Assembly: GCA_021018995.1 (NCBI GenBank)
Contig: CM037588.1
Location: forward strand, 149,563,725 to 149,627,724
Direction: 5' to 3'
Length of the DNA stretch: 64,000 bases
Source of the DNA: Chloranthus sessilifolius
Lineage: Eukaryota; Streptophyta; Magnoliopsida; Chloranthales; Chloranthaceae
Numbering within the stretch: position 1 is the stretch's first letter; the number at the start of each line of letters is the position of its first letter. The notes under the pieces are model-generated. The model was not told the origin of the DNA, did no database searches, and saw nothing but the letters and a program-made list of their open reading frames with translations. This document shows, piece by piece, positions 4,059 to 63,417 of this stretch. The position numbers and the translations under genes are program-made.

Positions 4059-4767
4059 TGGGAATCAAGATGATCCCGTCGCGACGATGCGCTCTCTAAC
4101 GAAAAATATAGTCACCACCCGGAGCTTTCGGTGTCCCGGGATACCCAGTTTATTTTTATGAGAACCGAAGTGCTAAAAATATGACTCTGAATCCGGTCCA
4201 CACCAAAGGCTCTTGGGTAGGGGCTTCGGTTATCGACCGGGAAGGTATTAGGCCCCTGATCAACCCGCTTAGTGCGGTTTCTACTAATGGCTAAAAATAA
4301 AACGAAGTAAAAGAAAAAAAAATAGCTTCCTCTTGCCTAAAAGGGCTTAGATTCCTATTTGTACCCCTCTGTTCCTATCGAAAAGTCGGTGGCGTAATGA
4401 CACAAATGGGAGGATGGAGGGAGCTAGAAAGAGATAGGAGAAGAAAGGGGAGAGCCGGGGCCCTCGGGCCCTTGTAGCACCATAAGAGAGCCTTGCGTTG
4501 GCTTGCTTTGATGCTCTTGAAGGCTTTGTATGGGGGGAAAAAGGGTTCTAACCACTAAGGCCTACTAGCTAGGAGATGGAGAAGATGGTAGGAGATCACA
4601 CATACCTAACCTAAGGGTTTTTTATGAAATGCTAAGGGTGGGAAGAGGTTTTAGAATTCTGATTTTTGTATGGGAGGGGTGCACCAAAGGGAGAAAGATC
4701 TTCTCACTTTAAGCTCTTTCTCTCTTAGGTAGATATTCTCAACTCTTAAACCAAGGGGAGGGGGTCT

Positions 4768-4777
4768 CTATTTATAG
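4768..4777 (-). promoter_or_regulatory. TATA box in the F 3' LTR
   Basis: The minus strand reads CTATAAATAG, a near-ideal plant TATA box, followed downstream by a GA-rich leader. The same sequence is at 21448-21457 in the other LTR. Confidence 0.65.
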
Positions 4778-5055
4778 GAAAAGGATAGGTTAGGAGGCTA
4801 CTTAGATGCTAATTAGAGTTAGCAATTAGATAATCTCTAATCTAAGGTTTCCTAGGATTTTGAGAGCTTGGAGATGTGGGGAAATGGTTTTAATGGTGGA
4901 TGATAGGTTAGTGTTTCAAATCACTTAAGGGTTATAAATAGGCATTAAAAGGGTACAACAAAGTTATCAAAACACACCCCAAGGATCAAGGTGGTTAATA
5001 AGTCAAACCCCAATCATGATTTTTGAGGTAAAATCCAACAGTTACTGTTCATATG

Positions 5056-5280
5056 CCTGGCGCAACTAATAATTGCGCCAGACAAATGTACAGTAAAATA
5101 GTAATGAACAGTAGCTTGAAAGCTGGCTTCGCGAGGGGTGGGGGGACCCATTTATACCTAGCGCAACTATTAGTTGTGCCAGGCCATTTCTGGGAGAAAG
5201 AGGCCTGTCACAACTATTAGTTGCTCTAGGCAATTTAAGAGGGAAAATAGTTTGGCGCAACTATTAGTTACGCCAGGCAA
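5056..5280. repeat. Palindrome array in the F 3' LTR
   Basis: Four copies of a roughly 25-bp self-complementary motif with half-site CTGGCGCAACTA and its complement, at about 5057, 5157, 5210 and 5252. The copies have decayed to different degrees. The same motif is arrayed in the other LTR (21736-21932) and inside the element (19703-19873). Confidence 0.88.
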
Positions 5281-5661
5281 AAATCTCTCCAAAAAAGTCT
5301 AATTTTCAAATGGTCATAACTTTTGATATACAACTCCAATTGATGGGATGTTTATCTCGTTGGAAAGCTGGAGAAGTCCTCTTTCCAATGGTATATGATT
5401 TGATATTAGTATAAGACCTTAGCTAGTCATGGTGCACCACTCTTTATCTATTGCCCGGGAAGGTAGGTTTAGGGTTTGGAATGGGTTCTAAGGGTCGGGA
5501 CTGGTTTCTAAAGGTTCGAGATAGGTTCCTAAGGGATCTAGGGTGATTACTAAGGGTTTGGGGTGATTCCTAAGGGTCCATATATGCCATCAAAAGCTTG
5601 AAAATGTGCCTCTCTGAAAATGTGTTTTGATCGGGCCTTGGGCCAAATTTGGGTGTCTACA

Positions 5662-5676
5662 GATGCCCCTCTTTGG
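5662..5676 (-). promoter_or_regulatory. Polypurine tract of element F
   Basis: The minus strand reads AAAGAGGGGCATC directly before the 3' LTR, the position of the plus-strand DNA primer in reverse transcription. Confidence 0.65.
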
Positions 5677-6768
5677 TATCTGATCACTAATGATCGTATG
5701 CCAAAGAAAAGAGACATCCGAAGAGGCCCAAGGCATTATTGATGAGTCTGCTGCATTCAGAATGAACTTCAAACATCAGGTGAGTAACACGGTGAAAAAA
5801 TGAAAGCCCTTGGGTGCCAGGCTAATCATTCGTTTATCGAGGTAATCGGTTTTCAAGCACTTAGCGATATTACTGGACATAACCGAGGTGAAACGAGTTG
5901 CGAAAGCCCAATAGCTAGGAAAAATATTCGCCTCTCAAGTTGCGAAAGCCCATTAGTCAGGAAAAAATATCCGCTTCTCGAGATGATGTGAAGGTGATTG
6001 ACGTTCGAGATTCATTATGAATGCAACAACTTCCTAAGTAAGAGGGGTGATCGACCCACATTTAAGGATAGGCGCGAAGCAAACATATGCAAGGCTCCAT
6101 AGTTTGCGTCCAATCTTACAAGGCATTTGATGACCTCATTGGATTATTCGTGGGTGCCCCTGCTGAAAGCAGGGTTCGAGATCTTTGGGTCAACCCATCG
6201 ACCCCGAAGTTTATTTAGCATGATTGTCCGAGCGAAGTAGATAGATGTCACAATGCTTTTTGGGAGTACGTGCTATTTTTTCGTAAGCATGCCCTAGATC
6301 AACATGACCTAGAGTATCCAGCTTCGACTACCTTGAACAGATTTAACCAAACATTGAGTGTCTCCCAAAAAGGGGCATCCAATCCTGGCTTCCGCCGACA
6401 ATGATCATAAACATCAATTAACTATGCATAATCATGCGCCCATCAGGGGAAATAAGCAACAACAAAGGTGATAGAAGCCACGACCCAGACTCGCCCGGGT
6501 ACAATTTACTGGGACAAACGACCATCATACGGATACCTAGACACATGGCATACACTTTACAGGGATACTGCTGCCCATACAGGTTTTAAGCCTGCAGAAA
6601 ATAAAAGGGAAATGAACCATTCCGAATGCATGGTTGCACATAGTTTGATTGATATATAATCTCATTCTTAACAGGTTGGTTTCAACTAACGATTGACCTT
6701 TTCCAACGAAGAATTTGAAGCTTAAGACACTTAAGTTCATATGAATCCACAACAGAGCGCTTATCGCA

Positions 6769-15585: not shown

Positions 15586-15701
15586 GGTCGATCGATCGAC
15601 TAAAGAGGGTCGATCGATCGACCATATCAGATTTTGTTTTAAAATTCCAAATCTTCCGGATTAGGTCGATCGATCGACCAAAAAGGGTCGATCAATCGAC
15701 C
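15586..15701. repeat. Palindrome array in the E1 LTR
   Basis: Four copies of GGTCGATCGATCGACC or a one-base variant at about 15586, 15608, 15664 and 15686. They form two pairs with 22-bp spacing inside each pair. Confidence 0.92.
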
Positions 15702-19702: not shown

Positions 19703-19873
19703 GCTTGGCGCAACTAATATATGTGCCCAGGTTACAGGGGACCGATTTTACACTGGCGCAACTATTAGTTGCGCCAAGGTAAAACTTTGGATTTTAAAGC
19801 TGGCGCAACTATTAGTTGCGCCAGTTATAAATTCTAGTTTTTTACATTGGTGTAACTAATACTTGCGCCAGGC
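19703..19873. repeat. Internal palindrome array of element F
   Basis: Four copies of the same TGGCGCAACTA...TAGTTGCGCCA palindrome that is arrayed in the F LTRs, at about 19706, 19753, 19800 and 19847 (spacing about 47 bp). The two central copies are essentially perfect. The array lies about 400 bp upstream of the gag ATG. Confidence 0.9.
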
Positions 19874-20721: not shown

Positions 20722-21447
20722 TCTGTGGAACTGTGGGAATCGAGACGATCCCGTAGCGACGATGCGCTCTCTAACGAAAAATATAGAGTCGCCACCCGGA
20801 GCTTTCGGTGTCCCGGGATACCTAGTTCATTTTTATGAGCACCGAAGTGCTAAAAATATGACTCTGAATCCGATCCACACCAAAGGCTCTTGGGTAGGGG
20901 CTTCGGTTATCGATCGGAAAGGTATTAGGCACCCGATCAACCCGCTTAGCACGGCCTCTACTAATGGCCAAAAATAAAATGAAGTAAAAGAAAAGAAAAT
21001 AGCTTCCTCTTGCCCAAAAAGGCTTAGAATCCTATTTGTGCCCCTCCGTTCCTACCGAAAAGTCGGCGACGTAACAGCACAAATGGGAAGAGGGAGGGAA
21101 CTAGAAAGAGATAGGAGAAGAAAGGGGAGTGCTGGAGCCCTCGGGCCGTTGTAGCACCGTAGGAGAGCCTTGCGTTGGCTTGCTTTGATGATCTCTTGAA
21201 GGCTTTGTATGGGGGAAAAAAGGGGTTCTAACCACTGAGGCCGACTAGCTAGGAGATGGAGAAGAGAGGCTAGGAGATCACACACCTAACCTAAGGGTTT
21301 TTTATAAAATGTTAAGGGTGGGAAAAGGTTTTGGAATTCTAGTTTTTGTATGGGAGGGGTGCACCAAAGGGAGAAAGATCTTCTCACTTTAAGCTCTTTC
21401 TCTCTTAGGTAGAAATTCTCAACCCTTAAACCAAGGGAAAGGGGTCT

Positions 21448-21457
21448 CTATTTATAG
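21448..21457 (-). promoter_or_regulatory. TATA box in the F 5' LTR
   Basis: CTATAAATAG on the minus strand, 0.86 kb into the LTR and about 280 bp downstream of the palindrome array. It is the likely core promoter for the genomic RNA. A weaker TATAAAA lies near 22050. Confidence 0.65.
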
Positions 21458-21735
21458 GAAAAGAATAGGTTAGGAGGCTACTTAGATGCTAATTAGGGTT
21501 AGAAATTAGGTAATCTCTAATCTAAGGTTTCTTAGGATTTTAAGAGCTTAGAGATGTGGGGGAATGGTTTTAATGGTGTATGATAGGTTAGTATTTCAAA
21601 TTACTTAAGGGTTGCAAATAGGCATTAAAAGGGTGCAATAAAATTATCAAAACACACCCCAAGGATCAAGGTGGTCAATAAGTCAAACCCCAATCACAAT
21701 TTTCGGGGTAAAATCTAACAGTTATTGTTCATATG

Positions 21736-21932
21736 CCTGGCGCAAGTAAAACAGTAATGAACAGTAGCCTGGAAGTTGGCTTTGCGAGGGGTGGGGGGAC
21801 CCATTTATACCTGGAGCAACTATTAGTTTCACTAGGCCATTTCTGGGGGAAAAAGGCCTGGCGCAACTATTAGTTGCGCCAGGCAATTTCAGGGGGAAAA
21901 TGGCTTGGCGCAACTATTAGTTGCACTAGGCA
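21736..21932. repeat. Palindrome array in the F 5' LTR
   Basis: Three copies of the CTGGCGCAACTA-type palindrome (about 21810, 21866 and 21904) plus one half copy (21738). The copy at 21866 is perfect. Confidence 0.88.
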
Positions 21933-22316
21933 AAAATCCCTCCAAAAAAGCCCGATTTTCAAATGGTCATAACTTTTAATATTAAACTCTGATTGAGGCG
22001 ATTCTTGACTCGTTGGAAATCTGGAGAAGTCCTCTTTCTAATGGTATATGATTTTATATCAGTAGAAAATCTCAGCTAGTCCTAGTGCACCACTCTTTAT
22101 CCATTGCTCGGGAAGGTTAGGTTTAGGGTTTGGAATGGGTTCTAAGAGTCGGGACTGGTTTCTAAATGTTCGGGATAGGTTCCTAAGGGATCTAGGGTGA
22201 TTTCTAAGGATTTGAGGTGATTCCTAAGGGTTTCATACATGCCATCAAAAGCTCGAAAATACGCCACTCTCGAAATATGTTTTGATCGGGCCTTGGGCCA
22301 AATTTGGGTGTCTACA

Positions 22317-25645: not shown

Positions 25646-25785
25646 TGTCACAACCCCAGATTTTTGGGATACGTGCACGTCATGCACTATATACATGTAT
25701 ATGTGTTTCACAAGGAAACCAAAACGAAACCGTAGACACTATGTGTGTATGTGGGAAACACACTAGTATTTCCCTAACTTATAAG

Positions 25786-25793
25786 TATATAAG
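25786..25793 (+). promoter_or_regulatory. TATA-like box of the A LTR
   Basis: TATATAAG about 140 bp into the LTR, followed by a GAGAGAGGAGAG leader. The same sequence occurs at 35266-35273. Confidence 0.5.
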
Positions 25794-26154
25794 TGAAAGA
25801 GAGAGGAGAGAAGAGCCCTTGCGTAACTCTATTCTAACCTAAATAGAGAGAAGGAGAATATAGAGAGAAAGAAAAGAAGAGCCTAGTAAAGAGCTAGGGT
25901 TTCGTTGGGACTTAAATCGGCAGAAGAGTTGGAGAAAAGGCTAGAAGAGGAACCTTGGAGGCCTATTAGACTAGTAGAATTTCGAATCTTAAATCAAACT
26001 TGCGGGAGACTCATCGTCGGAGGTATGTTAAAGGCAGATGCTTAGGCATGTTTTAAATAATAGGAAGAATGTTGGTTGAATGTTTTTAATGATGTTAAGG
26101 TTTGACTGAAGGGAGAAATTGTGTTCTCGATCTGATCGAGGAGCAAAAATCATC

Positions 26155-26385
26155 GCTCCTCGCTCGAGCGGTCTAAAGGGCTCGCTCGAGCGAGGATGAA
26201 TAGGAAAAATATAGTTTTGGGCTCGCTCGAGCGGTCCCCAAAACTTGAGGGAAGCTCGCTCGAGCGAGGTCCCCAGTAATGCTTCAGTGGCTCGATTTAA
26301 CCGCTCGAGCGACCTCGATTTAACCACTCGAGCGAGGTCAGGTGACCCCTCGAGCGAGGTCAAGTGACCGCTCGAGCGAGGTCCG
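26155..26385. repeat. Palindrome array in the A 5' LTR
   Basis: Eight copies centred on CTCGAG; the fullest form is CTCGCTCGAGCGAG (about 26181 and 26256). Others are cut to GCTCGAGCG. Positions are about 26161, 26181, 26222, 26256, 26302, 26325, 26348 and 26370, with 22-23 bp spacing in the last four. Confidence 0.93.
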
Positions 26386-26809
26386 GTGACCACTCAGTTC
26401 TTGAAATTTTGGGTATAAGAAACATGGGGGTTGTGCACCCCAATGATTCTAGTAACCTTTCTAAGCATATGCTACATTGAAATGTAGGTTTGACGCATGA
26501 TCGTGAAGTGTAAACCTCTACGAGAAGGCGTGCTTTGAAATTCGTCGAGGTAAGAAATATTCTTGAAACATGTGCATTATTCCGTCAAATTCATATATGT
26601 AGTGTAATCCATTTAAATAGTCAAATACTGCATGATCATTATGAAAAAGGGTGTGTGAGTGAGTTTCAAACGTGATAGTCTTGAGGTCCCCAGGGGACGA
26701 AAAATTATAAAGTTAACATCTAAAGGATGCGATGGAAATCAGGGGCATCCCAGGGATGCAGATGAAAACTAAAGGAAAGCAAGTAATGTGATAAGGCCTG
26801 ATGTAATAT

Positions 26810-27150
26810 AATTAGCACAATCGCGGTGAATAACTATATGTAGAGCACATTTGATATTTTTATTATTTAAGGTTTGATTAGAATACCCCACCGACGTGGC
26901 GGGATACCCACGACTGACTCGGCAGGATATCCGTGAGCGATACGGCGGCAAATCCGTACTTTCATAGCACATCCCAGGGATGTAGATCTAAGAATAGACC
27001 CTGCCACCTATGAGAAAGGGGCTTGGGCGATTCGAGGGAATACATATAACAACTGTCTAGTTAGACGACGATGGCGGGTATTCAATCGGGGCTCGATGCT
27101 ATATTGCTCAGGGACAACTTAAGTTAAGATTTAAGTGATTAGGCCAAATT
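26810..27150 (+). repeat. LTR block conserved between families A, B and D
   Basis: It contains AACTATATGTA, then GACGACGATGG-C-GGGTATTC and GGGGCTCGATGCTATATTGCTC. Near-identical blocks are at 44220-44490 (B), 54690-55060 (D, complement) and 36320-36660 (3' LTR of A). Confidence 0.85.
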
Positions 27151-27819
27151 CACAACTAAACCAGTAAGGAGATTAAACCAAACCATGCAGAGTAACAGTC
27201 GAAATCATTATTTTTATTCCAGATATTTCAATTGTTTTCCATAAGTGTTACTCGATAAATTATGCTTTTTAAACTGCTGATATATGTGTGAAGGTTAATC
27301 TATATGTTCTTTTTGTTTCCCTACGGAGCTAGGATGTAGCTCACCCCCCTTAGACTATACGTCGCAAGTCCAGGACTAGCGGCGGTGAGAGACTTTGGCG
27401 ATCCAGGGGATTCGGATTTCGTGCCCACGGAAGAGTCAGAACCTCCTCCTAAGGAATTCTTCTAGGAAACCCACTGCATACTTTGAGAGTGAGTTGAGAG
27501 TATTAGGTACGGCTTGGTATGTCAAGCCTCTTTATTTCGAATGTATTTAAATACCGTTTCTTTTGATAAAACGTCTAGGATGAACAGTTATCACCAATGG
27601 TTTGGGTAAGTTCTTATGCCCATGAATTGGCATGGGACAAGGACTGCCTTTCGATACCATGATTATTTTTATATGAGAATTTGTTTAGAGTAGCTACGTG
27701 CACCTTAATTACAGTTTTGGCTTGTATATACCAATGTTTTGTAAAGAACCCAGGGCACGACCTTGAGGGTCGTGCTGATGGCACGAACTTTGGGGTGCCG
27801 AAATTCGGGCTGTCACAGT

Positions 27820-27831
27820 TGGTATCAGAGC
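27820..27831 (+). promoter_or_regulatory. Primer-binding site of element A
   Basis: TGGTATCAGAGC two bases after the 5' LTR. This is complementary to the 3' end of initiator methionine tRNA, the standard plant Ty3 and copia primer. Confidence 0.93.
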
Positions 27832-30614: not shown

Positions 30615-30617
30615 ACC

Positions 30618-33101: not shown

Positions 33102-33258
33102 GTCTCGCTCGAGCGACCACTTATGTTCGCTCGAGCGAACCACATAAAATCACGACTTCCTCTCGCTCGAGCGAGGCATTTTGACCGCTCGAGAAACTCT
33201 CTTCCTTCGGCGAGGCCATAACATATAAAAGAAAGCGTCACAGGCTCGCTCGGCGATA
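33102..33258. repeat. Internal palindrome array of element A
   Basis: The CTCGCTCGAGCGAG motif of the A LTR recurs at about 33103, 33126 (as TTCGCTCGAGCGAA), 33161 and 33186 (partial), with a degenerate GCTCGCTCGGCGA at 33244. It lies 230-390 bp upstream of the extra ORF. Confidence 0.92.
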
Positions 33259-33491: not shown

Positions 33492-34778
33492 ATGGCTTCA
33501 AGCCCAAATCCACAACCTAAGAAGCGGATGGCGATTATTGCGTCGCGCAACAAAGCGCCGCAAACTTCACAACCATCACCAAACCCATCCTCCACTCCGA
33601 TCACACTAGATGATTGGTGGGGGGCCAAAATTTTTGAAACCGAATGGGATATACATCCCTCCTGTTTCGGGGATCCGACGTCCACCCAATGGACATCGGA
33701 CTTCCTCACCAACAACAATCTTAAGACCCTGCTTACGTCGTTCGGGGATCGTTATTACCCGAGGCTTGTGAAGTTATTTTATCAAACCCTAAACTTGAAC
33801 GTGGACGAGGACGCTATCCTCGTCACAATCGATGGTAATGAGCTAATCTTTAGATGTGCCAAAATTTCATCGGTCATGAAATGTCCCCACATCTACACCC
33901 CTAGCCCACTTATCCTACCACCTTTTTCTGGGAACGTCGATTTCCCAACGATCATTTCCAATATCACGGGCGGCATGTCCGCTTCGGGACAATCTATTAC
34001 TCGATCACAACTACCGCCGCGTATGTGGCTTCTAGACGTCATCTTCAAAAAGAATCTACACCCAACCGGCCATGATCAAGAACGCCGAGATGCGTTTCTG
34101 CGGGCCCTACACACCGCATTCCATAATAGGTGGATCAACGCATCTATGATCATCATAAAAGGCATGGCGCATGCCTATAAAAAAAATGTAAAGGGTGCTG
34201 TTCCTCCACCCATCAACCAACTACCATATGCTCGGTTGATTTCCCGACTCCTAGACTCACAGAATGGGAAGGGAGGATTTAAGATCCGGGAGGACGAGTT
34301 GTTCCTCACCAATAACGTCGTCCCCTATCTCGCCCAAGACTGGAGCCGCAACCTAAAGAGTCTACAAACCAACGTCAACAAGAAAAGAGACCATCAGGTC
34401 TCCCGACAAACCACGCATCAAGCGCCGGCAGGACCGACCACTCCCTCTACCTCAGTTCCACAGCCCATACCCACTACTGACACTGGCATGATGCGGGAGA
34501 TCCTTCAGCAAGGGCGGGAGATTAGATTGCATCAGAGGTTCCAGGAGGCACTACTTATCGACCTCATGGGCCAGGCTTACCCGCAATCATACATGCAGCG
34601 CGTCGGTGCCATAAAAGATGCTATTTTTGGAGCGTCTAACTCCGGCCCTGCTACGAGGAGCGCCACAGCGGGTACCACGACCATCAGGGTGGACGACGAG
34701 GATGAGGATGACGAGGACTACGAGGATGATGATGGCTCCGGCGACGACGACAACGACTATGAGGAGGATGATGACTAG
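33492..34778 (+). CDS. Extra 3' ORF of element A, 428 aa, function unknown
   Basis: An uninterrupted frame downstream of pol, unusual for a chromovirus. The N-terminus is Pro/Ser-rich (SQPSPNPSSTPITLDDWWG), then a globular region: YYPRLVKLFYQTLNL (about 90-105), a beta-like VTIDGNELIFRCAKI (about 114-130), RMWLLDVIFKKNLHPTGHD (about 178-197) and LPYARLISRLLD (about 242-254). A Thr/Pro-rich hinge and a strongly acidic Asp/Glu tail (about 398-428) close it. Homologues are at 41222-42556 (B) and 61720-62829 (E2). It resembles what databases call a putative plant transposon protein domain (from memory). No signal peptide or membrane segment is seen, so it does not look like an envelope protein. 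It is intact although pol is broken. Confidence 0.85.
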   Translation: MASSPNPQPKKRMAIIASRNKAPQTSQPSPNPSSTPITLDDWWGAKIFETEWDIHPSCFGDPTSTQWTSDFLTNNNLKTLLTSFGDRYYPRLVKLFYQTLNLNVDEDAILVTIDGNELIFRCAKISSVMKCPHIYTPSPLILPPFSGNVDFPTIISNITGGMSASGQSITRSQLPPRMWLLDVIFKKNLHPTGHDQERRDAFLRALHTAFHNRWINASMIIIKGMAHAYKKNVKGAVPPPINQLPYARLISRLLDSQNGKGGFKIREDELFLTNNVVPYLAQDWSRNLKSLQTNVNKKRDHQVSRQTTHQAPAGPTTPSTSVPQPIPTTDTGMMREILQQGREIRLHQRFQEALLIDLMGQAYPQSYMQRVGAIKDAIFGASNSGPATRSATAGTTTIRVDDEDEDDEDYEDDDGSGDDDNDYEEDDD

Positions 34779-35125: not shown

Positions 35126-37336
35126 TGTCACAACCCCAGATTTTTGGGATACGTGCACGCCATGCACTATATACATGTATATGTGTTTCACAAGGAAACT
35201 AAAACGAAACCGTAGACACTATGTGTGTATGTGGGAAACACACTAGTATTTCCCTAACTTATAAGTATATAAGTGAAAGAGAGAGGAGAGAAGAGCCCTT
35301 GCGTAACTCTATTCTAACCTAAATAGAGAGAAGGAGAATATAGAGAGAAAGAAAAGAAGAGCCTAGTAAAGAACTAGGGTTTCGTTGGGACTTAAATCGG
35401 CAGAAGAGTTAGAGAAAAGGTTGGAGGAGGAACCTTGGAGGCCTATTAGACTAGTAGAATTTCGAATCTTAAATCAAACTTGCGTGAGACTCATCGTCGG
35501 AGGTATGTTAAAGGCATGATAGATGCTTAGGCATGTTTTAAATAATAGGAAGAATGTTGGTTGAATATTTTTAATGATGTTAAGGTTTGAATGAAGGGAG
35601 AAATTGTGTTCTCGATCTGATCGAGGAGCAAAAATCACCGCTCCTCGCTCGAGCGGTCTAAAGGGCTCGCTCGAGCGAGGATGAATAGGAAAAATATAGT
35701 TCTGGGCTCGCTCGAGCGGTCCCCAAAACTTGAGGGAAGCTCGCTCGAGCGAGGTCCCCAGTAATGCTTCAGTGGCTCGATTTAACCGCTCGAGCGACCT
35801 CGATTTAACCGCTCGAGCGAGGTCAGGTGACTGCTCGAGCGAGGTCAAGTGACTACGCGAGCGAGGTCAAGTGACCGCTCGAGCGAGGTCCGGTGACCAC
35901 TCAGTTCTTGAAATTTTGGGTACAAGAAACATGGGGGTTGTGCACCCCAATGATTCTAGTAACCTTTCTAAGCATATGCTACATTGAAATGTAGGTTTGA
36001 CGCATGATCGTGAAGTGTAAACCTCTACGAGAAGGCGTGCTTTGAAATTCGTCAAGGTAGGGAATATTCTTGAAACATGTGCATTATTCTGTCAAATTCA
36101 TATATGTAGTGTAATCCATTTAAATAGTCAAATACTGCATGATCATTATGAAAAAGGGTGTGTGAGTGAGTTTCAAACGTGATAGTCTTGAGGTTCCCAG
36201 GGGACGAAAAATTATAAAGTTAACATCTAAAGGATGCGATGGAAATCAGGGGCATCCCAGGGATGCAGATGAAAACTAACAGTGAAACAGAAGTAATGTG
36301 ATAAAGCCTGATATAATATAATTAGCACAATCACGGTGAATAACTATATGTAAAGCACATTTGATATTTTTATTATTTAAGGTTTGATTAGAATACCCCA
36401 CCGACGTGGCGGGATACCCACGACTGACTCGGCAGGATATCCGTGAGAGGTACGACGGAAAATCCGTACTTTCATAGCACATCCCAGGGATGTAGATCTA
36501 AGAATAGACCCCACCACCTATGAGAAAGGGGCTTGGGCAGTATTCCCAGGGAATACATATAACAACTGTCTAGTTAGACGACGATGGCGGGTATTCCATC
36601 GGGGCTCGATGCTATATTGCTCGGGGACTACTTAAGTTAAGATTTAAGTGATTAGGCCAAATTCACAACTAAACCAGTAAGGAGATTAAACAAAACCATG
36701 CAGAGTAACAGTCGAAATCATTATTTTTATTCCAGATATTTCAATTATTTTCCATAAGTGTTACTCGATAAATTATGCTTTTTAAACTGCTGATATATGT
36801 GCGAAGGTTAATCTATATGTTCTTTTTGTTTCCCTACGGAGCTAGGATGTAGCTCACCCCCCTTAGACTATACGTCGTAGGTCCAGGACTAGCGGCAGTA
36901 GAGACTTCTGGAGACGCTGATCCAGGGGATTCGGATTTCGTGCCCACGGAAGAGTCAGAACCTCCTCCTGAGGAATTCTTCTAAGAAACCCACTTCATAC
37001 TTTGAGAGTGAGTTGAGAGTATTAGGTACGGCTTGGTATGTCAAGCCTCTTTATTTCGAATGTATTTAAATACCGTTTCTTTTGATAAAACGTCTAGGAT
37101 GAACAGTTATCACCAATGGTTTGGGTAAGTTCTTATGCCCATGAATTGGCATGGGACAAGGACTGCCTTTCGATACCATGATTATTTTTATATGAGAATT
37201 TGTTTAGAGTAGCTACGTGCACCTTAATTACAGTTTTGGCTTGTATATACTAATGTTTTGTAAAGAACCCAGGGCAAGGCCTTGAGGGTCGTGCTGATGG
37301 CACGGACTTCGGGGTGCCAAAATTCGGGCTGTCACA
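35126..37336 (+). mobile_element. 3' LTR of element A
   Basis: 2211 bp, nearly identical to 25646-27817. Its palindrome array (35635-35895) has one unit more than the 5' LTR. Confidence 0.93.
35635..35895. repeat. Palindrome array in the A 3' LTR
   Basis: Nine CTCGAG-centred copies against eight in the 5' LTR. The extra one (about 35853) reads ACGCGAGCGAGG and comes with a duplicated GAGGTCAAGTGAC spacer. Confidence 0.92.
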
Positions 37337-40039: not shown

Positions 40040-40504
40040 TAGAAGTTGCATATGATCTATGTTAAATGCGGAGCAAATGTTTAAAATGGTTCTAAGTGTG
40101 AAATTTTAAGTTCCAACTTTATCCTTATGGACCGTGTATAAAATGTTTGTAAATATGGAATTGTGAATAATCTTTATGATTTTTAGCTATACTAGGTGAA
40201 ACTATAAATTATGAGTTCCTCTCTCAAATTTTAAATCTTATGATTATAACTACCACACACTGTGTCAAGATTGGTGTGTACAATCCGGGCTAGTGGTAAG
40301 AGATGAGCAACTATTTAATTAATGGACTAGTAAAGAGTATGACCGATCTGTGTGTAACGGGAACAGTGATTATTCACGATATAATTAGATGCATGATTGA
40401 TGTAAATGATGGTTGGTCCATGGAGGGGCATGATGAAATTGCCTCTTTCTGATGAATGGTTTGAAAGATAAGGGAAACAAACTAAGTTCCAGAAATTTTG
40501 GAAT

Positions 40505-40996
40505 TTAGTTTGAACGAAATCTAAATTCGTTCAAACGAATTTTTGTAGATATAGGCATCAGGTGTAGCCAGAGATCGTTTGAATGATTTCTCAATTCGTT
40601 CGAACGAAATGGCTATGACAGTGAGTACCAAGGTGTTGCCAGGAAATCGTTCGAACAATTTTCCAATTCGTTCGAACGAAATCCCAACGGTCAGCGAGAA
40701 GGCCATGAGTCACAGAGAAATTCGTGCGAACGATTTTAAATTCGTTCGAACGAAAATTAGTTGAGCTTAGTGGCACTGGACAATTCATTCGAACGAAAAC
40801 ACATTTGTTCGAACGATTTTTGCACCACACATTAAGACAATGAAATTTTGTTCGAATGAAATACCATTCGTTCGAACGATTTTGAACCATAAACTAAAGA
40901 GAGTGAAATTCGTTCGAACGAAAGTGATTTGTTCGAACGATTTTGTTCATATATATGCATATGGGCTTGGTTCTCTCCCCATTCGTATGAACGAAA
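40505..40996. repeat. Internal palindrome array of element B, paired units
   Basis: Fifteen copies of an AATTCGTTCGAACGAATT-type palindrome. They come in pairs about 20 bp apart, with pair starts at about 40507, 40574, 40646, 40720, 40783, 40847, 40908 and a single at 40981, giving a period of 61-74 bp. Sequence between copies is not conserved. Confidence 0.94.
40949..40964 (+). promoter_or_regulatory. TATA-like box upstream of B's extra ORF
   Basis: CATATATATGCATATG at the end of the palindrome array, about 270 bp before the ATG at 41222. Confidence 0.35.
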
Positions 40997-41221: not shown

Positions 41222-42556
41222 ATGCCGCCCAAAACTCGCCAAGCCACGGCGAGTGCCGCGCCAAAGAAACCCACTTCGGGTTCTTCATCTCAACAACCGC
41301 CGAAGAAACCACCTACGGGTTCTTCATCGGCACCACATGCACAAGCACCACCTCCACCACCCTTACGTGAACGACCAGATGAGTGGTGGTCTGATAAAGA
41401 CTTCGAACCTGAATGGATCATTGATCCTAAAACATTCGCCAAGCATGAGGAGACGCATTAGGCATTTGACTACATTTCTACCGTAGGCTTAACCGGTGTC
41501 CTTCGCCCATGCAAGGACAGTTATTACCCTAGAATAGTCCGGCTATTTTATCAAAATATGGAAATCATTAAGGATCCTACCATTTTGAAAACAAAGATTG
41601 ATAATCGGCCATACACATTCACTTTTGATGACGTGGCGGATGCATTGGAATGCTTCCATACCTACAACCACGAAGATATCACCCTCGCTGAACCTTTTCC
41701 GGAAAAGCTAGACTATAAGTACGTGGCAGCTCACATGACCCACGGTCGAACTTGTTCGGGTCACTCAATTAGTCGTGCCCATTTACCTCGCGAGCTTTGG
41801 ATGCTCGATTCAATCATCCAATGCAATCTTTACCCTTTACGCCATCGAACTGAGAGAGTGGGTGAAGTCCAGATGGCACTTTTTGCAGCCTATAATGGCC
41901 GATGGTTTAATGCGCCTCAGATGGTCTTGGAGGGATTGAAATACGCACGTAAGAAGATGTTGCCCAACGTCAAGAAGTCCATCGACGATATGCCGTATGC
42001 CCGACTCATTTCCCTCATGGTCGAGGACTATGCGGGTGACGATACCTATACCCTCGCCCCAAATGAATTCAAATTGACGGGGAATGTTCAGGAATTCACT
42101 ATGATTGATTGGAACCAGACGTATGTCAAGTTAATTAAGAAGCCGATAGCCGAGGAACCACCGCAGCCGGAACCCCAAGCGCAAGACCAACCACCACATG
42201 CCACGCTGGTATATGATGACCCTACGGTTCGTGTTCCACCTCAACAGCCTGTCGATCAAAGTGCTCAGGCTCAAGCGCCACCTCCACCATGTGAGGGCAT
42301 GCCTACCCCAACTTTGTCCGATATCTATGCCCTGTTGGAGGCCAGCACACGTTAAATGGCAGAAAATAATCGCCTACTCAATCGACGGTTGGACTACTAT
42401 GATGCACTACATGCCGAGGAGATGCGCTTTATGTATCCCGATGATTACCTTCAGCGCATGGCAGCAGCACAGGCATGGGTCTCAGGCGCGTCGACTTTGG
42501 GTGTAGGTGGACCAGATGGTGATGGTAGCCATCCGCCGGGCGGCGAGGCGTCTTGA
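41222..42556 (+). pseudogene. Extra 3' ORF of element B
   Basis: A single frame of 445 codons with two in-frame stops (TAG 41459-41461, TAA 42353-42355) and no frameshift. Order as in A: basic/Pro-rich N-terminus (MPPKTRQATASAAPKK), DEWWSDKDFEPEW, YYPRIVRLFYQNMEI, the IDNRPYTFTFDDVADAL segment, HLPRELWMLDSIIQCNLYP, DMPYARLISLMVEDYAG, a Pro/Gln-rich hinge and a C-terminal helix (NNRLLNRRLDYYDALHAEEM). It is homologous to 33492-34778 and 61720-62829. The role is unknown; the lack of frameshifts contrasts with its own pol. Confidence 0.85.
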
Positions 42557-42939: not shown

Positions 42940-43211
42940 TGTAGCGTCCCGATAATTTCATACTTAAATAGTGCACCTCGGGATGCGGGCCAACTGGTCA
43001 AGTGTTTGACCGGGTCAACATTCACTCGGTTGACTTAGTTGAACATGTGGAAAGGATGGAGTTAAGTGGAACCAAAGGAATTGGTAGGATGTGTGAGTAC
43101 ATACACTTAGTTGGGTGTATATGCTTTACACCGAAATAAAAGAAACCTAGATTATAAAGGAAAGGAGGGGAAGGAAAGTTATTTCTTTTGGATGAGTAGT
43201 TGAGAAGAGTT

Positions 43212-43215
43212 AAGA

Positions 43216-43259
<44 letters not shown>
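43212..43259. repeat. (GA)n microsatellite
   Basis: About 24 GA units in the transcribed leader of the B LTR. Confidence 0.95.
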
Positions 43260-43262
<3 letters not shown>

Positions 43263-43552
43263 TAAATGTGATCATAAGAAGGCATTGAATGCGAATGATC
43301 GATCTTGGCTCGCAAAGTCTAGCGGATCGAGGAGAAATTTTAGTTGGGTAGTTTGAGAAACCCTAGTGAGCTAAAAGTTGGGATCAAAGGATCTAACTGA
43401 AAGAGGTAAGTTTAGATCTTGATATATTTATTTTTGTAGCAAAAAAATATAGCATTTAGTAATTTAAACATGAGAAAATAAGGATCATAAAAAAGGTAGT
43501 TGATCGGATGAGTTCAAGGGAGATGAACTCGATCCATGGCTGAGAAAGAGCA

Positions 43553-43692
43553 AATTCGTTCGAACGAAATGAAATTTCGATTGAACGAATTTGGCTAGAG
43601 AAAGTAAAAAGAAAGAAGAGTTTCTGAGTAATTCGTTCGAACGATTTTGCTATGGGGGACAATAGTGTCCTGAGTGATTCGTTCGAACGAAA
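43553..43692. repeat. Palindrome array in the B LTR
   Basis: Four copies of the ATTCGTTCGAACGAAT-type palindrome (about 43555, 43573 degenerate, 43631, 43678), the same motif as in the internal array of B. Confidence 0.92.
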
Positions 43693-44219
43693 CGAAATCG
43701 TGGTAAATTTAAGTTTTTAAGGCTTATTTTAGCTTGTAAAGAATTAGTGGTTGAACCTAAGCCTTTTTGACCCAATGATTATACCTTGTGGTAATGTTTT
43801 ACATGTGTTGATCATACCTAGGTCAAGCCGGATTGGTGTATAAATCGTCGAAGAAACGGATTAGAAAATCCGAGGGTTTGAGATGCATGTAAGGTAGGGG
43901 AATATCTCAACTAGTACACTGTACTGCGAGCACATATGTAGTGATAGTTTATGATGCATGTCTCTTAAAATATTGTTTTGAGTTTCAGTTAATGAAAGGA
44001 GTAATGGTTAATGGCAATGGTGTGTGCATGTCTATAAAGATAAAATAGTAAACTTGTTAAGTAAGAGTTCAATCATCCCAGGGATGTAAGAACGCATAGG
44101 CATCGCAGAGATGCAACTGATAATGTGACATCCCAGGGATGTATGGTGGATGTAAAGATCCACGCTAAGAGATAACCAGTAAATTCAGAATGCACGGGTT
44201 GGGTGTTATTATCTATTAG

Positions 44220-44490
44220 CACAAATTCACGGTGAACAGCTATATGTATTGCACAATTTGATTTAAGGTTCAGATCGACTTCGGCAGATATCCGTGACCG
44301 GTACGGTGACTTATCCGTACACCAACAGACATCCCAGGGATGTGTAGTAGTAGTATAACCGTCGCCTACGAGTTAGGGACGTGGACAATTAAATGAAAAA
44401 TAGTCTGATTAGACGACGATGGAGGGTATTCCATCGGGGCTCGATGCTATATTGCTCGGGGATTATTTAAGTTAAGATTTAAATCATGGT
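44220..44490 (+). repeat. LTR block conserved with A and D, copy in B
   Basis: Contains CGGTGAACAGCTATATGTA and, near 44410, AGACGACGATGGAGGGTATT followed by CCATCGGGGCTCGATGC. Confidence 0.85.
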
Positions 44491-45214
44491 CTCAGCCTGG
44501 TTGCAACTAAAGGAACATAGTAATCATTTTTGAATTTCAAAGAGTAGGTAATAATTGCAGTCAAAGTGTTTATTGCATCTTAAATTTATTTGTTTCAAGC
44601 AAAGATAATTGTGAGCCCATGTTTTATTCCTGTCATGAAATATATGTTAGTAAGAAAGATATACTTGTTGTGATATTTTCCTATTGAGCTAGGATGTAGC
44701 TCACCCTTGACTATATGTCACAGATGATGATTTAGGAATTGCCACCGACGAGTTAGGCATGGCTGCTGACGTGGTTGAGCCCGAGGACCCAGAGTACTTT
44801 CCGAGGGAGGAATTTGAGCCTCCTCCAGAGAAATTCTTCTAGGAGATTCGCTGCTTACTTTGATAGTGTTTTGAGAAAGAAAGAATTAAGGCTTGGTATG
44901 TCCGGCTATATTTTGTAAACGTAAAAATGCATGTGATATTATTTTGTCGAACCATTGGGAGTGACCTTAGATAAGGGACTAATGGGTCGGGTTGGTTCTT
45001 TGGTTCATACTGAGGCATGGAATGAGAACTATCTTTTGGATTATTATTTTGGTTTAGCTTATAGTAGAATTGGAGATTTACTTGCATTAAATCCTATGTA
45101 TGGGTACTATTGTGAATGGGATGTACCAAGTGTTCCGCACATAATCATGGGGCACGGTCTCGAGGACTGTGCTGATGGCACGGGTTTCGGGGTGCCGAAA
45201 TTCGGGCTGTCACA

Positions 45215-55526: not shown

Positions 55527-55872
55527 AAATCGATTAATCGATTCCCAAAATCGATTAATCAAAATCCAAAATCGATTAATCGATCCCAAATCGATTAATC
55601 GAAATCCCTAAAATGGTAAAGTTGATTTTCAAATCGAGTAGTCGAAAATCCGAAATCGATTAGTCGATCCCAAATCGATTAATTGAAATCCAAAATCGAT
55701 TAATCGATTTCCCAAGTCCTTTCTCTCCAGCTACTAGAGGTACCCAATCGATTAGTCGATTTCCAAATTGATTAATCAATTTTCAGATCGATTAATTGAA
55801 ATCGAGCATCCTTGACTTTTCAACTTTTAGACCAAAATCGATTAATCGATTTTCAAAATCGATTAATCGATT
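55527..55872. repeat. Palindrome array in the D LTR
   Basis: Thirteen copies of AAATCGATTAATCGATTT or a one- to two-base variant, mostly spaced 20-21 bp, at about 55528, 55549, 55570, 55590, 55632, 55655, 55674, 55695, 55747, 55767, 55787, 55837 and 55858. Confidence 0.94.
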
Positions 55873-56458: not shown

Positions 56459-57191
56459 AGCCCATCATTGAATAAATTGCCCATAGATTGGACAACATTT
56501 ACTTGTAGGCATGCATGCTAATTATGGGTAGATATAGTTTGTTTAGGGCTGCCAATGGGCCGGGATAGGTTTGGTATGGGCTTGAAATGTCTTGGTATTA
56601 ATCAGATGTAGCTTGGTGGGTTGGAAATGATAACATATGTGGGCTCATGTCTAGCTTGATTATTAATCAAACACGAAATCCAAGTTGAGCCTCTTCCTCT
56701 AGACCAGAACCTTTAACCTAGGCCTGTGCAGCTAGCCTGGCACATTGATACCATTAGGTTTGTTTAAATCATTTATTGGTAGGAAACTCACCATAGGCAT
56801 TTCCAATATCTGATATGGAAATTGTGTGCTCTTTTGCAGTTCAATTCACAGGCACATAATAACAACCATCCATCTGATCCCAAGATCCCCTTCGAATATT
56901 GTTATTACATGAGGTCATTTTTCTTAACTTAAGTTAGACATTGGGTTTGCCCCCTTTTGGAACCAAAATCTCTTATCTTCTCACTGAAATATGCAGTTCT
57001 ACTGAGAATACTAGTCGGATACCTAGCGTAAGTCTAACAATGAAAGGCGGGGGCAGTTTTCCATTCTTGATCCTATGATTGTCATCTTCACTCGGGTAAG
57101 ACTGCTTTTCTGTTAGAAAGATTTTTCGAATTTTTCTGTGAGCCCATTTTTAAAACAATAATTAAAATACCTTATACTCAAGTTGAATTCA
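56459..57191. other. Non-coding DNA, possible hAT-like fragment
   Basis: TAGGGCTGCCAATGGGCCGGG near 56544 resembles a hAT terminus, but no opposite end or target duplication was found. Nothing else is recognised. Confidence 0.35.
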
Positions 57192-57563
57192 TGACTTAGA
57201 CCTTACACTTGATTCTTCTTTGGATAATTATAAACTAAGGACAAATTTGATGCAGACAAAGTGCAAGCGGTTGACGTGGCGCGATGTGACTGGTTGCACC
57301 GCCTCGCATTAATTGAGCCCCAACGCCCGTGCAGTCAATTACATCGTGCCACATCATCCGCCTGCACTTTGTCTGCATGACTCAGACCTTACACTTGATT
57401 CTTCTTTGGAAAATTATAAACTAAGGACAAATTTGATGCAGACAAAGTGCAAGCGGCTAATGTGGCGTGACGTGACTGGTTGCACCGCCTTACATTAATT
57501 GAGCCCCAACGCTCATGCAGTCAATTACATCGTGCCACATCATTCGCCTACACTTTGTCTGCA
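57192..57563. repeat. Tandem duplication (period 186 bp) carrying a foldback MITE
   Basis: 57192-57377 and 57378-57563 are about 93% identical by eye. Each unit ends in a 127-bp foldback element (57251-57377 and 57437-57563) with terminal TGCAGACAAAGTGCA and its complement. Arms extend about 40-50 bp with mismatches. The shared flanking sequence shows that the whole unit was duplicated rather than the element inserting twice. Confidence 0.8.
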
Positions 57564-57666
57564 TAAAATATGTCCTCCCTTTAACATTGTCCTTATTATT
57601 TAGCACAAATTTTATTTCTGGACAAATCCTATAGTTCATGTCTTTTTTATTTGAATCAAGCCCTAC

Positions 57667-59300
57667 TGTTGTGAAAATTAAGTTGTACTCGTAAGTGCAC
57701 GAATCGTGATGTAGTCAGTGGGTGCAGAGTACGAGATTGTTCCCACGAGGATTGGTTAGAAAATTTAAAATTAAAAATAACAATTAACCAAAAGAATTTT
57801 CACAGATCTATCACAGTATTTTCTAAATTTAAAACTTAAGAACTTGGAAAATGAGATAAACACTAACCACTAATTGAAATTTAAACAGATTATGAAAGGT
57901 AAGGATTAGGATACCAAATCCTCCCATCTTAAGTTTATCATTTGTGCAATACAAATCTGTGGATTGAGATGTGAGATCTTTAACAGATATCTAAAAAGAA
58001 GCACCGCCCTAAACACGCGTGAGTTCTAAAGTATAGATCTGAGATCACGGAGATGCATGATTAACATCTCATGAGTGTATGATTAACACTCACACCTCGG
58101 ACAATACCCAGAACCCAATCTCTAGATAATTTCTAAAGTACGATCTAAGATCAAGGAGATGTATGATTAATACTCCATGAGTGTGTGATTAACACCCACA
58201 CCTCAGATAGTGATTGGAACTCACCACTGGGATAAAGTCACACTATCAATCCGAGATCAAGGAGATGTATAATTAACACCCCATGAGTGTATGATTAACA
58301 CTCATACCTCAGATGGCAGTAAAACTTTACCCCGAGATGGGTAATAATTAGGATAAAATCATTATTGCAGATCTGAAATCATAGAGCATGATTAGCTCCT
58401 AGATCTCAGATTGAAATCAGATTTTACCATTTTCAATAACAACATTAGGGCCTTTAAAAACATCTGACATCTCAATCACATATTTATATTAATATAAATG
58501 ACTCCCTCGGATGGGGTTCATTAGATCCCCATCTCTAATAAAACTAGCCACACATAATTGAAATAAATAACTCAATAAATGCATAAATTGAAAATGACAT
58601 TAAAATACCGTAAGGAATGATCCACAAAAATCCATGAAAGCTTTAATCTAACCCGGTACAATCCTTCTTCAAATGCAGAAATTAAATTAATCTAGGACCT
58701 AAAACTAGGAAATGGAAAGAACAATGCTTGAAAAATAAAAGGCTCCCCAAAGGGAGAGACTCCCAGAATCCTCATTTTTTCTCTTTAAATTCCCCTAAGG
58801 TCGATCAATTGACCAGATTTAAGTTTGAAATTCAAATTCAAATCTCTTTTGTTATGTCGATGCATCGACCTTAGGGGGTCGATTGATCGAGTTTGTTGGT
58901 TGATTGATCGACCTTCCCAGATTTTCGTGAAACTCGGCCAAACTCTTCAACAAATATAGCCTCAGTATTTTGGTCATAACTTTTTATCCTGAAGTTGGAT
59001 TGAGGCGATTCTTATGGCGTTGGAAAGAAGACGACGAGCTCTACGACTTTTGTGTTTTAACCATTTCATGAATCTAATATTTTAAAGGTCAAAATTAAGC
59101 TTCAAGTTGGGATAAGTTCTGAATGATCCAAGGTAGCACGAATTTGATATTATATTCTGAACTCTTGGGTTATTTTATGCTCAACACATCTCCAGACTTG
59201 TAAATCACTAAAACTATATAAAACATATTAAATAGCTTTCATCGGGTGGCTAAATATAGGTTTTTAGGGATGAAATATCATCATATTTCACTACTCATCA
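57667..59300 (-). mobile_element. 3' LTR of element E2
   Basis: 1634 bp from TGTTGTG to CTCATCA. It has the same tandem repeat (58040-58390) and palindrome type (58799-58913) as E1 but lacks some E1 segments near the left palindromes. Confidence 0.85.
58799..58913. repeat. Palindrome array in the E2 LTR
   Basis: Four copies of the GGTCGATCGATCGACC family, each mutated (GGTCGATCAATTGACC, TGTCGATGCATCGACC, GGTCGATTGATCGAG, GGTTGATTGATCGACC). Self-complementarity is partly kept by paired changes, as in TCGATGCATCGA. Confidence 0.9.
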
Positions 59301-61555: not shown

Positions 61556-61837
61556 TAATGTAAAAAGAAATCCTAATTCTATTCATCTTCTTCTTCCTCT
61601 GCCTGCCTTGCACGAGCCATCATCTCGACATAGCCATTGGGCCACACTTGTTGACCCAATTGATGTATAAAGGATCGATCATAGCGATTGCGACAATAAT
61701 GTAAAAAGAAATCCTAATTCTAATAATCTTCTTCTTCCTCTGCCTGCCTTGCACGAGCCATCATCTCGACATAGCCATCGGGCCACAATTGTTGACCCAA
61801 TTGATGTATGAAGGATCGATCATAGCGATTGCGACAA
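61556..61837. repeat. 141-bp tandem duplication at the end of E2's extra ORF
   Basis: 61556-61696 and 61697-61837 differ at only a few positions. The duplication repeats the C-terminal codons (FIHQLGQQ, VEMMARARQAEEEED). The inner copy supplies the stop. Confidence 0.88.
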
Positions 61838-62829
61838 AGATTTTGATTGTTCTGCTGTTGTTGCTCATCGATCAAGGAGTTGATCTGAGCTTGCATTAAT
61901 TCGAGGAAAACTCCCTCATTGCGAACTAGTTCTGGCACTCGGCTGCGCTGGCGTGCAGGCTAGGCAGGGGAATGTTGAGCATCAACATTGCCGGCTCCAC
62001 CAAGATTCCCTAAGAGACGCATACTTCATTTCCAATTCGTTGCCCCAATGCGATAAAATTGAAAGTCCCCAATATTATCATCAAGATAAAATGGGAAACC
62101 TAGGTGATGCAGAAGTTGCATCACCAAATGAGGGAAGTAAATAAGTGCTGCATCACCAGCAGGAGGGTTGGCAATCTCATTGTGGCATCGCCACATCGAA
62201 TCATGCAAAAACCATAAAATATTGAGCAAAGAATTTGTATAACCACCATACAGAGCCTTCACCCGAGGTCCAATTCGTTCTGACACATGACCTCGTGGGC
62301 AAAAACTAAAAGACACGACGATATCCCAAAATAAAATATTGGCCAGTGAAGCTGATCGCTTGGTAGCATTTACTCGTGATGCATATATGTCATTGCACAT
62401 ATCATCAATCACCGGTCTTTGGTCAACGTCAAGGTCTTCTCCAAGTTGGTGGTTCAGTGGACACTTAGTAAGAATGCCGAAAGCATCCGCGATCGTATCC
62501 GAATAAATCTTCCTTTTCCAACCGTTAATGGAGATAGTGAAATGGGCATCGTCATGAGTCTCAATCGATGCACTTTTCCACTCCATATTCTGATAAAACA
62601 AATGAACCACATGCTCCGAAACGTTGATTGCCGGTGGAGTCATTAGGAAATGGAGATTGAGAGCAGCAATATACGCGAGTGACACCGCACACTCAGGCAT
62701 CGCATGGAATGCCGGCAGATTGTACACATATTCTGATGATATTTCCTTGGTTGCAAAACGACCTTTGGGTCATTCTCTAAAGATTCCTTGCCGTCGGGGA
62801 GGAAGTCTTGCAGAGGAAGATGACACCAT
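61720..62829 (-). pseudogene. Extra ORF of element E2
   Basis: One frame of 370 codons from ATG 62829 with three in-frame stops (62770-62772, 62026-62028, 61960-61962) and no frameshift. It contains SEHVVHLFYQNMEW, then ISINGWKRKIYSDTIADAF, ILFWDIVVSFSFCPRGH and an acidic end, in the same order as the extra ORFs of A and B (LFYQNMEI, TFTFDDVADAL, LWMLDSIIQCNLYP). Helix-rich; no signal peptide or membrane span. The function is unknown. Confidence 0.82.
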
Positions 62830-62914
62830 CGCAGAAAATGTCAGAAGAAGGTTAGAGAATTTCAGAGCAGACTAGGAATGTTGGTGTGAATGAAGAATGG
62901 AGAGGATGTTCAAT

Positions 62915-62923
62915 CTTTAAATA
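62915..62923 (-). promoter_or_regulatory. TATA-like box upstream of E2's extra ORF
   Basis: TATTTAAAG on the minus strand, about 90 bp upstream of the ATG at 62829 and directly downstream of the palindrome array. Confidence 0.45.
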
Positions 62924-62961
62924 GGCATAGAGGCAACTCCTTACTTTGGTCGCATTGCTTC

Positions 62962-63417
62962 AGTCGATTGATCGAGACCCGAAGCTCGATTGATCGACCC
63001 TGACGTTGAAAAGATGCAACCAAAAGGCATTTAAGAACACACGTTGAGTTAAGTAATGTCGATGCATCGGCCCAAAGGTGTCGATCAATCGACACTGACA
63101 TGTAGCGTTTCCCCAGATGTTTGAACGATAAGTCAATAGGCGTGCATAAGGTCGATTAATCAACCATATAGGTCGATTGATCGAGGACGGCGAATGCAAC
63201 CTACGAAAAGATGTGACAGTTAATTCCCCTCGAAAATGCGCGATGTTTCAGGTTGATTAATCGAGTGACAACATCGATTAATCGACTGAGAAAGATATCA
63301 GCCTGAAAAGGCATGACAGTAAATGCCATGAATTGAATGCGGATTGATCGAAAAAAGCTCGATTGATCGACCATTCGTCTTATCGATCAATCGAGATATA
63401 GAGCTCGATTGATCGAC
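62962..63417. repeat. Internal palindrome array of element E2
   Basis: About twelve copies of GGTCGATTGATCGACC or a variant, mostly paired about 21 bp apart with roughly 70-95 bp between pairs: 62962/62984, 63057/63079, 63150/63171, 63251/63272, 63341/63357 and 63381/63402. The motif family is that of the E LTR. Confidence 0.92.

Follow-up and report, generated by a model that had tools for sequence, protein, structure and literature searches.

Private palindrome arrays in LTR retrotransposons of Chloranthus sessilifolius lie beside PF20167-related accessory genes whose proteins may recognise them

What reads, or makes, a palindrome that is repeated many times within a retrotransposon and changes from one family to the next? 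This question is raised by a window of 64,000 nucleotides of the Chloranthus sessilifolius genome (assembly GCA_021018995.1, contig CM037588.1, positions 149,563,725 to 149,627,724), which holds nested long terminal repeat (LTR) elements. An earlier inspection of the letters alone (the sequence-only reading) had claimed that five families in the window, A, B, D, E and F, each carry a palindrome array in the LTR, with a second array of the same motif inside the element where an internal region is present. All five motifs were found where claimed, and the second array was present in A, B, E2 (an element of family E) and F. In A, B and E2 this internal array lies upstream of an accessory open reading frame (ORF) related to PF20167. 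We propose, with a probability of about 0.6, that a dimer of the accessory protein binds the palindrome of its own family and that the protein controls both the LTR promoter and the internal promoter of its own gene. The arrays are as follows, with a slash marking the centre of a motif.

26159..26380, plus strand: A LTR array, CTCGCTC/GAGCGAG, 8 copies with at most 3 mismatches
33104..33175, plus strand: A internal array, 3 copies with at most 3 mismatches
35644..35887, plus strand: A 3' LTR array, 8 copies
40504..40944, plus strand: B internal array, ATTCGTTC/GAACGAAT, 13 copies with at most 4 mismatches
43554..43692, plus strand: B LTR array, 4 copies
55528..55872, minus strand: D LTR array, AATCGATT/AATCGATT, 13 copies with at most 4 mismatches
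15586..15701, minus strand: E1 LTR array, GGTCGATC/GATCGACC, 4 copies
58799..58913, minus strand: E2 LTR array, 4 copies
62962..63418, minus strand: E2 internal array, preceding the accessory ORF, 11 copies with at most 4 mismatches
21811..21929, minus strand: F LTR array (5' LTR), CTGGCGCAACTA-N-TAGTTGCGCCAG, 3 copies
5057..5276, minus strand: F 3' LTR array, 4 copies

We scanned the window de novo for clusters of similar near-palindromes with an arm of 8 and at least 7 of 8 positions paired. The scan returned the internal and LTR arrays of B and the arrays of D, E1 and the left LTR of F, and nothing else, while dinucleotide shuffles of the window gave no clusters in five out of five. With an arm of 7 and clusters of at least 4, the E2 internal array was gained and the B LTR array was lost. 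The A arrays were absent from both settings, and the copies in A were located by consensus match. Near-palindromes were enriched over shuffled sequence, with 213 centres in the window against 61-76 in three shuffles. Across the genome (2.17 Gb, 32 contigs), we counted exact matches to each motif, using the reversed pattern as the control. The A motif was present in 11,123 copies (control, 1), the B 14-mer core in 948 (7), the D 16-mer in 19,867 (1), the E motif in 7,125 (0), the F 25-mer in 3,560 (0), and the motif of a further family described below, G, in 2,526 (2). One arbitrary palindrome taken for comparison, GTTGCTCGAGCAAC, gave 39 copies and 1 for its control. The distances between clusters were checked at the first 50 places listed per family, taking gaps of 1-12 kb. 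All ten B gaps fell at 2.5-3.0 or 7.1-7.4 kb, as the internal-to-LTR and LTR-to-internal distances predict, and five of ten F gaps were near 2 kb, as in the window. For A, only three of eight gaps matched the window; four lay at 5.6-5.7 kb and one at 9.2 kb.

Copies within the arrays were 74-94% identical and their flanks 22-42%, and therefore the repeating unit is the motif itself and not a longer tandem unit. In A, B, D and E, copies form pairs at a spacing of 19-24 bp; in F the spacing is 47-48 bp, apart from a single gap of 101. The LTR arrays began approximately 0.39-0.61 kb into the LTR. The unconserved spacers, the spacing and the position had all been noted in the sequence-only reading, but its statement that each family has a private and different motif has to be qualified. 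Each territory was rich in its own core and contained 0-1 matches to foreign cores, except that D and E, which have an inner core in common, cross-matched: the D LTR showed 6 matches to an E variant with T at the dyad, and E2 showed 2 matches to D. Cross-matching was limited to these two. The motifs do differ, but they are not unrelated, as the half-site NTCGNTY is common to A, B, D and E. A helical phasing of 10.5 bp was considered and rejected, for although it fitted A, D and G, neighbouring periods fitted about equally, and E and B fitted 11.5-12 as well or better. Because the phasing is ambiguous, we claim only the pair spacing of 19-24 bp. The ratio of observed to expected CpG was 0.75 over the window as a whole, but 1.22-2.37 in the A, B, D and E arrays; in those of F it was 0.40-0.79.

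Directly downstream of the internal array in A, B and E2 lies an ORF related to PF20167.

33492..34775, plus strand: A accessory ORF, from the first ATG; PF20167-related, 35.4 bits, with an acidic C-terminal tail
41462..42352, plus strand: B accessory ORF; PF20167-related, 22.9 bits, with its upstream part in another frame
62029..62769, minus strand: E2 accessory ORF; PF20167-related, 31.5 bits

A single domain can be aligned across the three proteins, with B 32% and E2 22% identical to A. Three loci elsewhere in the genome (L036, L053 and L054) scored above the 45-bit PF20167 cut-off, and BLAST tied A to L053 (104 bits) and E2 to L054 (279 bits). Two copies of the A family, with ORFs 86% and 92% identical, carried 8 copies each of the A motif upstream, and the ORFs of L051, L052 and L054, to which the E2 ORF is 50-55% identical, had the E2 motif upstream. 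For D, two places (L065 and L066) were taken from the genome matches listed for its motif. At L066 there is an internal array, and the ORF that comes after it shares 42% identity with the B protein and 34.5% with the A protein. L065 was considered as an internal D array without an ORF, and rejected on finding that it is a D LTR.

We then asked the same of PF20167 loci across the genome, where 150 of 13,856 candidates were scored. Among the first 30 loci tested (L005-L034), the de novo scan found clusters of at least 4 copies of a new palindrome, CACGGAC/GTCCGTG, in 29, which defines family G. A further 20 loci (L035-L054) were chosen for unusual profile ranges, and the strict scan found clusters in 11 of these (eight G and three E-type); shuffles gave 0 in both sets. 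A looser scan revealed weaker G arrays, a motif H, CGGTCGACCG, in L040 and L045, and a motif I, CCTCGCGAGG, in L053, and the further loci therefore add three motifs, G, H and I. With fixed cores, 53 of 58 PF20167 loci beyond A, B and E2 had at least 3 copies of one of the motifs in the 1.1-1.5 kb preceding the ORF (43 G, 6 E, 2 H and 2 I), compared to a maximum of 1 copy in 290 shuffles. As the cores had been derived from these very loci, the de novo counts offer a fairer test. In 35 of 49 loci the motif also recurred at least twice downstream of the ORF. The internal array is thus not arbitrarily placed, since in A, B, E2 and these 53 loci an accessory ORF comes after it. Neither this ORF nor the skeleton common to the motifs, described below, had been noticed in the sequence-only reading. 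Ty1/copia RVT_2 was detected upstream of the ORF in L037 (G), L043 (G) and L045 (H), and L054 (motif E) carries Ty3-type RNase H and integrase, so that both superfamilies include elements in which the ORF is paired with a palindrome; five of the ten ORFs tested for element domains gave no match. In all, the accessory ORF is preceded by a private array in A, B, D, E, G, H and I.

Some of these loci showed other features. L005, tied among the three best PF20167 scores (69.2 bits), nevertheless had no palindrome array on either side. A word near L040 and L045, TGGTTAACCA, was considered as a further motif and rejected, since it equals CGGTCGACCG after CpG changes; the H copies downstream of the ORF at both loci show this change from CGGTCGACCG to TGGTTAACCA, resembling the CpG decay of old methylated copies. 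Oriented positions 5200-6899 of L042 hold a dense array of a further palindrome-like word (TCCACC...) that resembles none of these families.

The motifs of A, B, D, E, G and H fit a single skeleton, WCGNWY/RWNCGW, in which the half-site is WCGNWY and N takes all four bases. Read from the outside to the centre, the half-sites are cTCGCTC in A, TTCGTTC in B, ATCGATT in D, GTCGAT(c/T) in E, cACGGAC in G and cACGGTC in H, with core bases CGC in A, CGT in B, CGA in D and E, and CGG in G and H. The motifs of I (CCTCG) and F are outside the skeleton. Comparison of A and B showed that their divergence is concentrated in the ORF and the motif. The reverse transcriptase (RT)-RNase H region is 82% identical over 416 residues, integrase 85% over 271 and protease 66% over 218, whereas the accessory proteins are only 31% identical over 266 and the motifs also differ. 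Motif and protein therefore diverge together in this one pair of families. The sequence-only reading had seen a common architecture, an LTR array with one internal array, whose motif changes quickly between related families, and this was borne out: the A and B motifs differ while their pol proteins are 82-85% identical.

Promoter signals were found near the arrays. In family G, where 24 of 30 loci were used, 22 of the 24 had a TATAWA at a distance of 17-20 bp from the centre of the final palindrome in the LTR. Past the internal array, 8 had a TATAWA at 16-18 bp, and most others an A/T-rich run there. In A, TATAAG occurs at 26414, 33 bp past the 5' LTR array, and is missing in the 3' LTR copy, while TATAAA occurs at 33224, 48 bp past the internal array. 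The G accessory protein is under purifying selection, with a median pairwise ratio of nonsynonymous to synonymous substitution (dN/dS) of 0.18 among 20 stop-free copies. This figure is based on 143 of 190 pairs, 47 being outside a dS of 0.05-1.5, after excluding L005, L010 and L023 (absent or of other length) and 7 of 27 loci that contained stops. In the G internal array, the frequency of the major base was 0.945 in palindrome columns and 0.796 in spacers (p 3e-14).

Does the palindrome act as a double-stranded site or as a hairpin? We compared the number of copies with deviations on both sides to that expected for independent half-sites, and observed 3 against 4.7 in A, 1 against 1.1 in B, 35 against 30.3 in G and 2 against 1.9 in F, using a scan that restricts the number of mismatches and hence disfavours double changes. 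Since these values are near the independent expectation, a dimer site on double-stranded DNA is, in our reading, favoured. Folding was more stable than in shuffled sequence for all eight arrays tested (of 12; z -6.1 to -11.5), but as any palindrome folds, this is expected regardless. Taken singly, copies of the A, B, D, E and G motifs lack a natural loop and gave only -4.0 to -7.8 kcal/mol. A single F copy formed an 11-bp stem of -18.1 kcal/mol, and it is in F most of all that a hairpin role is possible.

We infer a switch with two parts. The cis part would be the private palindrome array in the U3 region of the LTR, along with its second occurrence in front of the accessory gene. The trans part would be the accessory protein of the PF20167 family (often called env-like), predicted to form a homodimer on its own palindrome. 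Once bound, the protein may switch on both promoters, that of the LTR and the internal one of its own gene, or shield them from silencing; DNA binding, dimerisation, activation or anti-silencing, and internal transcription would thus combine in a self-addressed feed-forward switch. The acidic tail of the A protein would suit an activator. With protein and site diverging together, each family would address only itself. The Tas protein of foamy virus acts on both the LTR and an internal promoter before its own gene, though that virus is unrelated and the likeness is in logic only. A broader proposal, which we hold tentatively and at slightly less than even odds, is that the env-like third gene with PF20167 encodes a DNA-binding self-recognition factor and not an envelope, and that WCGNWY/RWNCGW is an evolvable palindromic code across Ty1/copia and Ty3/gypsy, in which each family rewrites protein and sites together and so keeps its own promoter addressable.

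A number of observations weigh against this proposed switch. The A, B and E2 proteins score below the curated PF20167 cut-off of 45 bits, and no PF20167 ORF was found in F, though its layout fits. An AlphaFold model from three window sequences had a mean pLDDT of 32.7 and is unusable, supporting nothing. A search of PDB sequences found no relative, and a search of a protein collection with the A and E2 proteins (E 0.001) found no homologues. An upstream array of at least 3 copies was absent in 5 of the 58 loci (L005, L057, L058, which has 2 copies, L059 and L060), and the downstream motif was absent in 14 of 49. No simple TATA pattern was seen near the D and E1 arrays and the E2 internal array in the stretch examined. 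In the G LTR array, palindromes (0.950) did not differ significantly from spacers (0.904, p 0.28). Two-sided changes exceeded the expectation in E (37 against 23.8) and in D (1 against 0.2, a single event). Finally, likeness between motifs does not simply follow likeness between proteins: the D and E proteins are only 25-30% identical, yet their motifs have the inner core in common, and the I motif is on another skeleton although the I protein is related to that of A.

The palindromes could instead be bound by transcription factors of the host, with each family capturing a different factor and the internal copies driving the accessory gene. The proximity of the arrays to TATA boxes in family G is consistent with this, as is the account of Sirevirus motifs, given in the accessible text of PMC2829016, as matching mainly stress-related plant sites. 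However, a single skeleton with private motifs is found in families that carry a PF20167 ORF but are otherwise different elements, A and B differ in ORF and motif and not in pol, and a common host factor would favour common motifs. We therefore consider capture of host factors unlikely, though conceivable for any single family. More doubtful still is the suggestion that the palindromes act as hairpins of RNA or single-stranded DNA, serving as packaging or dimerisation signals or in small-RNA processing by the host. The folding of all eight arrays, the 11-bp stem of F and the excess of two-sided changes in E point in this direction, and a small-RNA excess over the palindromic region is described for maize Sireviruses in the part of PMC10760457 available. 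Yet folding is common to any palindrome, the single-copy stems of A, B, D, E and G are weak, in A, B, G and F the two half-sites vary independently of each other (by a scan that disfavours double changes), and hairpins leave the placement beside the accessory ORF and the TATA box unexplained.

It is also conceivable that the arrays have no function and are a neutral or mutational product, arising by short tandem growth or from palindromes that serve as insertion targets; nested plant elements are indeed reported to target palindromes (PMC6911290, in the text accessible). We regard this as very improbable, because the palindrome alone repeats within the arrays and the spacer does not, the palindromes of the G internal array are better conserved than its spacers, and the same two positions recur across different lineages. 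Binding of the accessory protein to its own palindrome remains the reading that we prefer.

The elements carrying these arrays are arranged in the window as follows.

25646..27817, plus strand: A 5' LTR (TGTCACA...TGTCACA)
27820: A primer-binding-like site, TGGTATCAGAGC, after the A 5' LTR
35126..37336, plus strand: A 3' LTR
42940..45214, plus strand: B 3' LTR, start approximate, from alignment to L066
54004..56453, minus strand: D LTR, 5' end approximate, from alignment to L065 and L066
14226..16088, minus strand: E1, a solo LTR within F, with CGGGT on both sides as a 5-bp target-site duplication
57680..59300, minus strand: E2 LTR, edges from alignment to E1
20724..22316, minus strand: F 5' LTR
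19705..19871, minus strand: a feature listed among the parts of F
4049..5661, minus strand: F 3' LTR

Element A (25646-37336) interrupts the pol of element B. The insertion is flanked by CTGAG and CCGAG, which are imperfect copies of the target site, and its point in B corresponds to approximately position 30182 in the pol of A itself. Element A encodes gag, protease, Ty3-type RNase H, integrase and SH3_Tf2-1. As both A and B carry the last three of these domains, the host element is not Ty1/copia. At the end of the A integrase, a match to the chromodomain PF00385 (24.3 bits), which would place A among the chromoviruses, fell just under the cut-off of 25.1. Element F has two types of RNase H, PF13456 (60.9 bits) and the Ty3-type PF17917 (88.3 bits), and as we take a second, archaeal-type RNase H besides the Ty3 one to mark the Tat lineage, F is presumably a member. 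On the minus strand of F, between the internal array and gag, are a GGGCCC-rich tandem repeat (17997-18472) and proline-rich ORFs without Pfam matches (18446-19448); a partner protein of F could possibly be encoded by these ORFs. E2 extends past the right end of the window. The E LTRs contain a 106-bp tandem repeat of about 2.7 copies (14593-14875 and 58024-58314), and recent tandem duplications of 186 and 141 bp lie in or beside E2 (57190-57564 and 61554-61837).

The sequence-only reading had also held that such arrays are explained by no standard retrotransposon feature. This finds no support, as the same layout was published in 2010 for Sireviruses, which are Ty1/copia elements (Bousios et al., 2010; PMC2829016). 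In the text of that paper accessible to us, the repeated motifs are described as palindromic, family-specific and of high copy number, placed ahead of a TATA box in the LTR's upper half and recurring before the ENV-like gene. The authors suggest a connection with an internal promoter, no single binding factor was found, and the motifs, with a CGG-CCG core, are called Sirevirus-specific (PMC2829016). The families described here resemble them in having many palindromic, family-specific copies in the LTR and a second cluster upstream of an env-like third ORF. The G (CGGAC/GTCCG) and H (CGGTC/GACCG) cores match those given for Usier and Vitis in the same text, and the G and H loci L037, L043 and L045 are themselves Ty1/copia. 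Unlike the Sireviruses, however, the layout here also occurs in Ty3/gypsy, with C, T or A as the third core base, and the CGG-CCG core becomes the N = G case of the WCGNWY skeleton. Moreover, the third ORF is here tied to PF20167 and proposed to encode a protein that reads the site, whereas an element-encoded binder is not proposed in the accessible text of PMC2829016.

The closest working analogues are the VANC proteins of VANDAL elements, as described in the accessible text of two papers (PMC5735166, PMC10398659). These are element-encoded proteins that act with a short motif repeated in non-coding regions; the motif differs between related families, and protein and target co-diverge. VANDALs are, however, DNA transposons, the VANC21 motif YAGTATTAY is not palindromic, and binding and loss of methylation were measured for VANC. 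The antisense TRP28 of Retand (PMC11963269) is similar in being an accessory ORF between pol and the 3' LTR, with predicted DNA binding and nearby tandem repeats; it belongs to another Pfam family and is antisense, and palindromes are not reported in the part of the paper available. The 3' accessory ORF of sunflower Athila (PMC11728184) has PF20167 in a Ty3/gypsy element and a predicted nuclear localisation signal, although the accessible text reports no cis motif and discusses env-like and dsRNA-binding roles. The open-licence literature, as far as its text was accessible, yielded no work linking PF20167 ORFs to palindromes, and none describing such arrays in Ty3/gypsy. What is new here, then, is the Ty3/gypsy members, the protein family, the skeleton and the co-divergence, the layout itself being known from Sireviruses.

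Three of these papers state, in the text available, that it is unknown what the accessory or env-like genes in plant retrotransposons do (PMC2829016, PMC11728184, PMC11963269). The presence of a private palindrome beside each accessory gene makes it a direct and cheap question whether the protein binds its own site. If it does, families within one genome would each run a control circuit of their own, cis sites could be predicted in thousands of LTRs, and nature would have supplied a set of related DNA-binding proteins that differ in specificity. Distant retroelement lineages would then have in common a control system similar to that of VANDALs, in the form of a self-recognition switch.

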